DNA of 64,000 bases, from NCBI RefSeq assembly GCF_023913515.1, contig NZ_CP099391.1, positions 1,178,001 through 1,242,000 of the forward strand. Direction: 5' to 3'. The notes under the pieces are model-generated. The model had not been told where the DNA came from. It saw only the letters and a list, made by a program, of their open reading frames with translations, and did not search any database. Within the stretch, counting starts at the first letter, position 1, and every line of letters begins with the position of its first letter. This stretch comes from Natronococcus sp. CG52 (GTDB lineage Archaea; Halobacteriota; Halobacteria; Halobacteriales; Natrialbaceae). The translations under genes were made by a program, and so were the position numbers. Positions 44,411 to 48,284 of the stretch are shown in pieces.

Positions 44411-46939
<2,529 letters not shown>

Positions 46940-46974
46940 CACCTACTCGTAGTTCCTCGGACGCTATACGGATT

Positions 46975-46992
46975 ATTTGGCGTGCGCCAAAT
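46975..46992. promoter_or_regulatory. 18-bp palindrome between metal regulator and ATPase, putative operator
   Basis: ATTTGGCG-TG-CGCCAAAT (46975-46992) has two perfect 8-bp arms. It lies 36-53 bp before the ATPase start and 5 bp after the regulator stop, overlapping the AT-rich core of the ATPase promoter (CAAATAATC, CGTATAGC on the minus strand). The likely ligand is the adjacent HTH-10 regulator; binding has not been shown. Confidence 0.6.
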
Positions 46993-46997
46993 CTGGG

Positions 46998-47759
46998 CTA
47001 GAGCGAGCTGCCCGCGCCGGGGACCGAAAGCGCCTCGAGCGAGTCGTCCTCGCCGACGAACGTCGCCGCGAGGGCCGCCTCGGCGCGCCGCAGCCGGTAG
47101 GAGAGGGTCGATCGGGGGACGTCCAGTCGGTTGGCGAGCTCCGAGAGTTCGATCCGTCGCGGCGTCTCGTAGTAGCCGTGTTCGACGGCCGCCCGCAGCG
47201 CCTCGCGCTGTTCGGCGGGGACCGAGTCGTCGGGACCCGTACTGTGGCGGTCCGGGTCGAGTTCCGTCAGCCGAAGCATTTCTATGCCCGTACACTCGCC
47301 GACCTCCTCGCCCAGCGCGTCGAAGAAGTCGTGAATCGGTGCGTCGCTGCCGAGGACGATCCGCCAACGGTGGCGCCGGCCCTCGCGGTAGGTCTCGAAC
47401 AGTAGCCCCTCGCCGAAGTGCTCGAGCGCGACGTGGGGGACCGACGTACAGACGTCCGTGCGGGCCCAGTAGGTGTAGACGACCAGCGTGTCGCTCGACC
47501 GGTCCAGTACCTGCGTCTCGCACTCGGCTCCGCAGTGGTCTTTCACCAGACAGTCGGCGAAGTAGTCCGCCGTCTCGTAAGCGGCCTCGAGTTCCGCGAG
47601 CGCTTCTTCGGAGCCGGTCGCGAGATCGACCCGCCAGAGGCTGTCGGGGGTGACGTGACACGACAGCGACCGGATCGAGGCGTCGGGATACGCCGCGAGC
47701 ACGTCGGCGACGGGGTTCGTCCCCGGATCGTACTCGAGGGCGAAGACGAATTCTCTCAT
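46998..47759 (-). CDS. Bacterio-opsin-activator-type HTH-10 regulator with Cys/His cluster
   Basis: 253 residues from ATG 47759. N-terminal sensor half (about 1-190) and C-terminal HTH-10 domain (about 200-245): LSELANRLDVPRSTLSYRLRRAEAAL, the haloarchaeal Bat-type winged helix. The sensor half has C34-H35, C70, H75, C76 and C80 (ADCLVKDHCGAEC) and one more Cys near 105, a plausible metal-binding set. It precedes a Zn/Cd-type P-ATPase on the same strand with an 18-bp palindrome between them, so it is likely the metal-responsive regulator of that pump. The regulation itself is inferred from gene order. Confidence 0.75.
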   Translation of the reverse strand: MREFVFALEYDPGTNPVADVLAAYPDASIRSLSCHVTPDSLWRVDLATGSEEALAELEAAYETADYFADCLVKDHCGAECETQVLDRSSDTLVVYTYWARTDVCTSVPHVALEHFGEGLLFETYREGRRHRWRIVLGSDAPIHDFFDALGEEVGECTGIEMLRLTELDPDRHSTGPDDSVPAEQREALRAAVEHGYYETPRRIELSELANRLDVPRSTLSYRLRRAEAALAATFVGEDDSLEALSVPGAGSSL

Positions 47760-47807: not shown

Positions 47808-48284
47808 GTGTCGATAGTGATCTCGGCCGTGATCCGGTGGACTCGGGGACTGTGGACGTTTTACCTGGCGTACACGAAGACCGGCGTCCACGCGGCGTCG
47901 GCGGCAGCGTTCGCTATCTTCGGCCTGCTGGTGTTCGTCGATTCGCTGTTCGCCGCCCTGGCGATCGGCTCCTACGTGCTTCCGCCCGTAGTCCTGTACG
48001 TCCTCGCGGACGATCCGATCGACGAGTACGTCCGGGACGAGAGCCCGGTGGAAGCAATGGTCGTTCGAGACGCCTCGCGGCTCGCAGAGGAGACTACCAC
48101 GGACGGCGGAGCGGGCGAGACGGATCGTACCACGATCGCCGATGAGGGCGGGTCGAGCGCCGATCGCTCCGCTGGCGATACTGATTCGGATAGCGACGAC
48201 GGCGACACCGACTCAGACAGCGATGACGGCGACACTGATTCGGACAGCGACGACGGTGATACCGACTCCGACAGCGACAGTTGA
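47808..48284 (+). CDS. Small membrane protein with acidic tandem-repeat tail
   Basis: 158 residues from GTG 47808 (GTG 47817 is the alternative). Membrane helices at about 14-48 (FYLAYTKTGVHAASAAAFAI and following) and 50-70 (LAIGSYVLPPVVLYVLADDP), then a polar linker, then a tail of four nine-residue repeats GDTDSDSDD (48174-48281). No family recognised. The Asp/Ser-rich tail is probably disordered and cytosolic or surface-exposed, and could bind cations. It starts 48 bp from the metal regulator and reads away from it, so a shared promoter region is possible. Confidence 0.6.
   Translation: MSIVISAVIRWTRGLWTFYLAYTKTGVHAASAAAFAIFGLLVFVDSLFAALAIGSYVLPPVVLYVLADDPIDEYVRDESPVEAMVVRDASRLAEETTTDGGAGETDRTTIADEGGSSADRSAGDTDSDSDDGDTDSDSDDGDTDSDSDDGDTDSDSDS
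48174..48281 (+). repeat. Four 27-bp coding tandem repeats (GDTDSDSDD)
   Basis: Four in-frame copies of a 27-bp unit with synonymous differences between copies, so the protein unit is kept while the DNA drifts. It ends just before the stop. Copy number is expected to vary between strains. Confidence 0.8.

Follow-up and report, generated by a model that had tools for sequence, protein, structure and literature searches.

The locus raises the question of whether a palindrome between a gene for an HTH_10 regulator and a gene for a heavy-metal ATPase is the regulator's operator, and which signal the pair would answer. It lies in a 64-kb stretch of haloarchaeal DNA (hereafter the window, meaning the whole stretch that was analysed), and the genome of this window is one of a family set of 125 genomes.

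Gene pair and palindrome

The regulator (46998–47759, minus strand, 253 aa) was identified by domain search and structure modelling as a PF24281 sensor domain with a C-terminal HTH_10, and its best named matches were from Natronococcus, Natrialba, Natrinema and relatives. A short open reading frame adjoining it (47814–48284, plus strand), with repeats of DSDSDDGDT at its end, gave zero matches in a Pfam search. The pump (44411–46939, minus strand, about 842 aa) was identified by domain search and alignment to ZntA; it carries two HMA domains, both with MDCPSCA, scored above the TIGR01512 cut-off (cadmium-type P1B ATPases), and matched ZntA (4umv) at the CPC of TM6, the Lys of TM7 and the Asp of TM8 (DxG), which we take to be the defining P1B-2 residues. 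The pump was therefore classed as P1B-2-type, a predicted exporter of Zn, Cd or Pb. Its ATG is at 46937–46939, with an in-frame GTG one codon upstream, and 58 nt separate it (from 46939) from the regulator stop, which ends at 46998.

The palindrome, ATTTGGCG-TG-CGCCAAAT, is exact at 46975–46992 and lies inside this gap, as described in the earlier note. It is unique in the window at ≤3 mismatches (shuffled expectation 0.01), and is the sole site in the 4.74-Mb genome at ≤2 mismatches in the arms. The expectation that the same 18-mer would precede other metal genes thus failed, since no second genome site was found at that threshold, leaving one site with one target. The 18-bp symmetry that had been described holds in the window, but the core kept across relatives is 14 bp, TTGGCG-CA-CGCCAA on the pump strand (46977–46990); relatives share TTGGCG-NN-CGCCAA as the invariant core, and the outer pairs that complete 18 bp are asymmetric in most of them.

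Conservation, spacing and promoter geometry

Conservation and co-occurrence were read by comparing the window with 120 family-genome regions around regulator orthologs (52–90% identity). A same-strand P1B ATPase was present downstream of the regulator in 120 of the 121 regions, the exception (L170) ending with its contig. Clade A, with a regulator identity of at least 70%, has 87 pump-bearing loci; TTGGCGNNCGCCAA was perfect in 67 of these and nearly matched in the rest. All eight congeners have both the gene pair and the site, which had been proposed to be missing from such relatives if the idea were wrong.

The distance from the start of TTGG to the pump ATG was 51 nt in 85/87 clade-A and 27/28 clade-B loci. 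The palindrome scored was the best one in the interval that opens 200 nt ahead of the regulator stop and runs to the pump start, and among in-frame starts the one closest to 51 nt was taken, a choice that biases the count towards 51. Outliers were L158 (57 nt) and L190 (52 nt); at L138 the automatic pick was wrong, and a degenerate site found by eye is at 51 nt. Three of the four clade-C loci gave 50, 52 and 51 nt and the fourth, L196, was mis-picked (72), the same organism's copy at L272 giving 51 nt. Between the regulator stop and the site, distances ran from overlap to 2752 nt with the 51-nt pump spacing kept, and since the spacing is fixed to the pump ATG and not to the regulator stop, the site is an element of the pump promoter. 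The same spacing was found in 39 of the 42 pump-bearing loci among 44 further loci (L240–L283, of 80; window of 40–62 nt only; some repeating family genomes already counted), many from other families and including Halorubrum, Haloarcula, Halobellus, Halosimplex and Halobacterium, with exceptions at 52, 52 and 59 nt. The compared sequences are related, so none of these counts consists of independent observations. At L186 (2837–3046; Halopiger goleimassiliensis, a locus also listed as L258), a 35-bp unit of operator plus TATA stands before a clade-B pump in six perfect tandem copies; this repeat is an amplified promoter/operator array.

Across the family set, TTGGCGNNCGCCAA was present in 75 of 125 genomes, mostly once each. 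Among the matches listed, 58 of 75 sites were ≤500 nt from a pump end, three further sites (G043, G051, G097) were at clade-A loci in which the pump match was split or shortened, and the remaining 14 had a central pair that is neither CA nor TG. As a control, 20 of 21 pump homologs with no regulator nearby were searched (one G120 copy was left out), and none of the 20 had a TTGG-N6-CCAA site 30–75 nt before an in-frame ATG (best 10/14), in a window wider than the one used for the further loci. Presence of the site in all congeners and its absence at these homologs strongly support the earlier view of a regulator-operator-pump module. The regulator-free homologs (L314–L333) share another upstream element, roughly GTTAA..GYAGC....TTAATAA at about -90 to -20 from the ATG, which suggests that these pumps may be under a different regulator.

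Counted from the pump ATG, the 14-bp core occupies -51 to -38, with its centre at about -44. It had been placed on top of the pump promoter; it is instead just upstream of the TATA-like element, GTAT at -30 to -27 (46966–46969, minus strand), which was located by promoter comparison with the TTWT consensus given in the accessible text of PMC4983044. This element is GTAT in clade A, matching three of the four TTWT positions, and mostly TTAT in clade B. Information content over 85 promoters formed a sharp block, with a mean of 1.70 bits over -51 to -27 versus 0.39 elsewhere, and a second peak at a conserved TA at -12/-11 (46950–46951, minus strand; 1.9–2.0 bits). The TAT at -29 to -27 and this TA would fit the haloarchaeal TTWT TATA and WW -10 elements, and 72% of coding transcripts in Haloferax volcanii are leaderless (both from the accessible text of PMC4983044), so pump transcription probably starts at the ATG and is leaderless.

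A bacterial promoter scan of the locus gave zero matches, as expected for archaea. Before the regulator gene no autoregulatory site was found, the best scores not exceeding those of shuffled sequence, and the regulator is therefore probably made without self-control. TATA boxes were also scored at six positions against the TATA consensus TTTAWA: those of the 20 regulator-free pump promoters are TTTAATAA-like and match 5/6 in 20/20 cases, versus mostly 3–4/6 in regulated promoters, five of which, all in clade A, reach 5. The weaker TATA of regulated promoters would lean weakly towards activation, as clade B mostly has TTAT, a full TTWT, and the result hinges on the consensus chosen.

Sensor domain and recognition helix of the regulator

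PF24281 (HVO_2928_N; 212.9 bits against a cut-off of 27, residues 3–168) and PF04967 (HTH_10; 60 bits against a curated cut-off of 23.1, residues 183–231) were the sole regulator domains to reach their cut-offs. No MerR family was among its 11 Pfam hits at E ≤1, no ArsR-type HTH exceeded its cut-off, the winged-helix hits HTH_20 and HTH_24 were below theirs, and the Bat-type architecture (PAS, GAF and BAT PF15915 before HTH_10) was not found in the regulator. The genome encodes 49 matches to the regulator at E ≤0.001 and four PF24281 proteins, and no pump follows the other three PF24281 genes in the flanks read. In an even class sample, 94 of 145 genomes had a regulator match at E ≤1e-60; the scores formed two groups, a high one, which we infer to be pump-type regulators, and a low one (about 1e-60 to 1e-74), which includes paralogs beside other genes.

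In the structure model (mean pLDDT 77.6), two ferredoxin-like repeats are followed by a C-terminal HTH. The best match of the predicted sensor domain was Ta1207 of Thermoplasma acidophilum (5m86; Z 12.3, rmsd 3.0, 145 aligned) at 8% identity, and a common fold at this level shows no common function; the other top Foldseek rows had poor rmsd and were set aside. Searching PDB sequences with a profile of the regulator returned weak HTH matches only, the defence library gave just a weak HTH-level match that lends no support, and no relative was found in the viral contigs searched.

The earlier note had credited the regulator with a Cys/His set suited to metal binding, and the alignment shows this set to be conserved: the candidate ligands H35, C70, C76, C104 and H109 (encoded within 47433–47657, minus strand) are invariant in 142/142 distinct pump-linked regulators. 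C80 is typical of clade A (88/91 regulators), and C156 is present in 91/91 clade-A and 37/47 clade-B regulators. In 24 rows of non-pump paralogs, which include one gene twice (L013 = L313), C76 was found in 23, C104 in 22, H35 in 12, C70 in 11 and H109 in four. None of the 20 paralog regions examined had a pump beside the paralog; the neighbours, judged from sequence, include FAD oxidoreductases, a rhodanese-like protein and a TAT amidohydrolase. Since C76 and C104 are kept in these paralogs beside other genes, some of the cysteines may have a structural role or serve in thiol sensing. TTGG-N6-CCAA-like palindromes were also seen upstream of PF24281 paralogs not linked to pumps, close to the paralog's own start (L296, L301, L302, L309, L312), and downstream of the PF24281 paralog L313, before the next gene.

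In the recognition-helix region (residues 214–226; 47082–47120, minus strand), residue identity tracks operator type. The base that follows the upstream TTGG is C in all 90 clade-A rows, which have R216/S220, A in 47 clade-B/-C rows with R216/T220 and in one row with A220, and T in the two rows from Haladaptatus, which have G216; the operator partners are TTGGAATATTCCAA in clade B, TTGGA-type in clade C and TTGGT-type at the two Haladaptatus loci. Six of the 56 sequences entered in alignment A1 were left out (L206, which has a stop, L213, L215, L235, L253 and L255). This pairing, although it rests on few independent changes, points to the regulator as the binder, because helix residue and operator base change together, and the palindrome very probably serves as operator to the PF24281-HTH_10 regulator encoded next to it. 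The clade-C regulators (L172–L174, L196) precede a P1B-4-like ATPase with APC and HEGSEL motifs, in which a metal-binding domain was looked for and none was found.

Proposed mechanism, alternatives and related systems

In the model that we favour, a regulator dimer, suggested by the symmetry of the operator, would read the TTGGC/GCCAA half-sites directly upstream of BRE/TATA; its Cys/His sensor domain would bind Zn, Cd or Pb (soft divalent metals) when one of these is in excess, and the metal-loaded regulator would switch on transcription of the P1B-2 exporter. That metal is the signal is reasonably likely, given the P1B-2 pump and the conserved candidate ligands. A similar degree of confidence attaches to the model as a whole, in which a metal-sensing regulator, bound at a site with its centre at -44, would activate a leaderless P1B-2 promoter.

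The sign of regulation was weighed against a repressor model with ArsR/CsoR-like logic, in which the apo-regulator beside BRE/TATA would block TFB/TBP until released by metal. About 8 nt separate the end of the core from the TATA-like element, a distance short enough for a steric block, but the core is upstream of TATA and start and over neither, its position is that of the activating site of GvpE (accessible text of PMC8241225), and described HTH_10 relatives are named activators (accessible text of PMC11218638). On these latter grounds activation is favoured and is quite likely, and repression is rather unlikely. Alternatively, the regulator could respond to thiols or to redox conditions, in which case the pump would belong to a thiol-stress response and metal would not be the direct signal. 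The retention of C76/C104 in paralogs beside apparent FAD oxidoreductase and rhodanese genes (read from sequence) would fit this, as would the description of Bat as light- and redox-sensing in the accessible text of PMC5847659; it is nevertheless unlikely, as H35, C70 and H109 are in all pump-linked orthologs and often missing from paralogs, and a metal ATPase is linked in all but one of the 121 regions.

Two further readings concern the palindrome itself. Another, perhaps global, factor might bind it instead of the regulator; such a factor is very improbable, given that there is essentially one site per genome, at the pump, that the site is gone where the regulator is gone, and that it varies with the regulator's own recognition helix. 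The inverted repeat is just 3' of the regulator stop in the window, where it could serve the regulator gene as a terminator or RNA hairpin, but this candidate was rejected, its probability being close to nil, on account of the two-base loop, the absent T run, the lack of any terminator-like match, and a spacing fixed to the pump, which remains 51 nt when the regulator stop is 0.2–2.7 kb off.

The proposed activation of a P1B-2 exporter by a metal-sensing regulator resembles a bacterial arrangement, in which ZntR (MerR family) is the dedicated activator of ZntA, a P1B-2 exporter of Zn, Cd and Pb, via one palindrome. The likeness is that of a dedicated regulator of a P1B-2 exporter acting through one palindrome, with activation proposed here; the differences are that the locus has no MerR domain, and has an archaeal TATA with the site upstream in place of a stretched -35/-10 spacer. 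Among HTH_10 proteins, NarO has a Cys-rich N-terminus. Bat, NarO and DmsR are tied to light, oxygen and anaerobic respiration, with activation reported (accessible text of PMC5847659 and PMC11218638), consistent with the earlier remark that regulators of this type are not usually shown to sense metals. They share with the regulator the C-terminal HTH_10 and activation, which for the regulator is proposed only; the REC-PAS-GAF-BAT domains of Bat (accessible text of PMC5847659) differ from the PF24281 sensor, conserved Cys/His and metal-pump target found here. In Halobacterium, the Lrp-TRASH protein VNG1197C is a copper-dependent activator with the P1B ATPase YvgX (accessible text of PMC3600143), and is alike in that a haloarchaeal protein activates a P1B ATPase in a metal-dependent way, as proposed here, and unlike in pairing Lrp/TRASH with a Cu pump rather than HTH_10 with a P1B-2 pump. 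GvpE, a haloarchaeal activator that depends on a sequence 5' of TATA and BRE (accessible text of PMC8241225), shares the site position directly upstream of BRE/TATA, but is another type of protein with gas-vesicle genes as targets.

The literature searched, mostly free of subscription papers, contained no HTH_10 metal sensor in its accessible text (including PMC3600143, PMC9240420, PMC10694973, PMC8241225 and PMC5847659, as well as PMC11218638, PMC10062603, PMC12607858, PMC8305020 and PMC4983044). The parts of the module are thus of known kinds, and an HTH_10 protein as the dedicated regulator of a Zn/Cd-type pump with a defined operator is undescribed within the accessible text of that literature. 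Control of Zn/Cd efflux in archaea is little known, and the locus offers a candidate regulator, base-level operator predictions, a promoter geometry and likely metal ligands, in a group that has genetically workable members. If the model is true, metal sensing would be added to the HTH_10 proteins, of which this genome encodes many.

On balance, though with less confidence than in the model for this locus, PF24281-HTH_10 proteins with H35-C70-C76-C104-H109 may form an undescribed class of archaeal metal sensor, with tandem ferredoxin-like folds, that would activate P1B-2 and P1B-4-like pumps from a site fixed at -44. Sister clades would have rewired the operator (TTGGC, TTGGA, TTGGT) via residues 216/220, and paralogs with altered sensors would serve redox or other genes with TTGG-N6-CCAA; the clades provide a natural experiment on the divergence of operator specificity.
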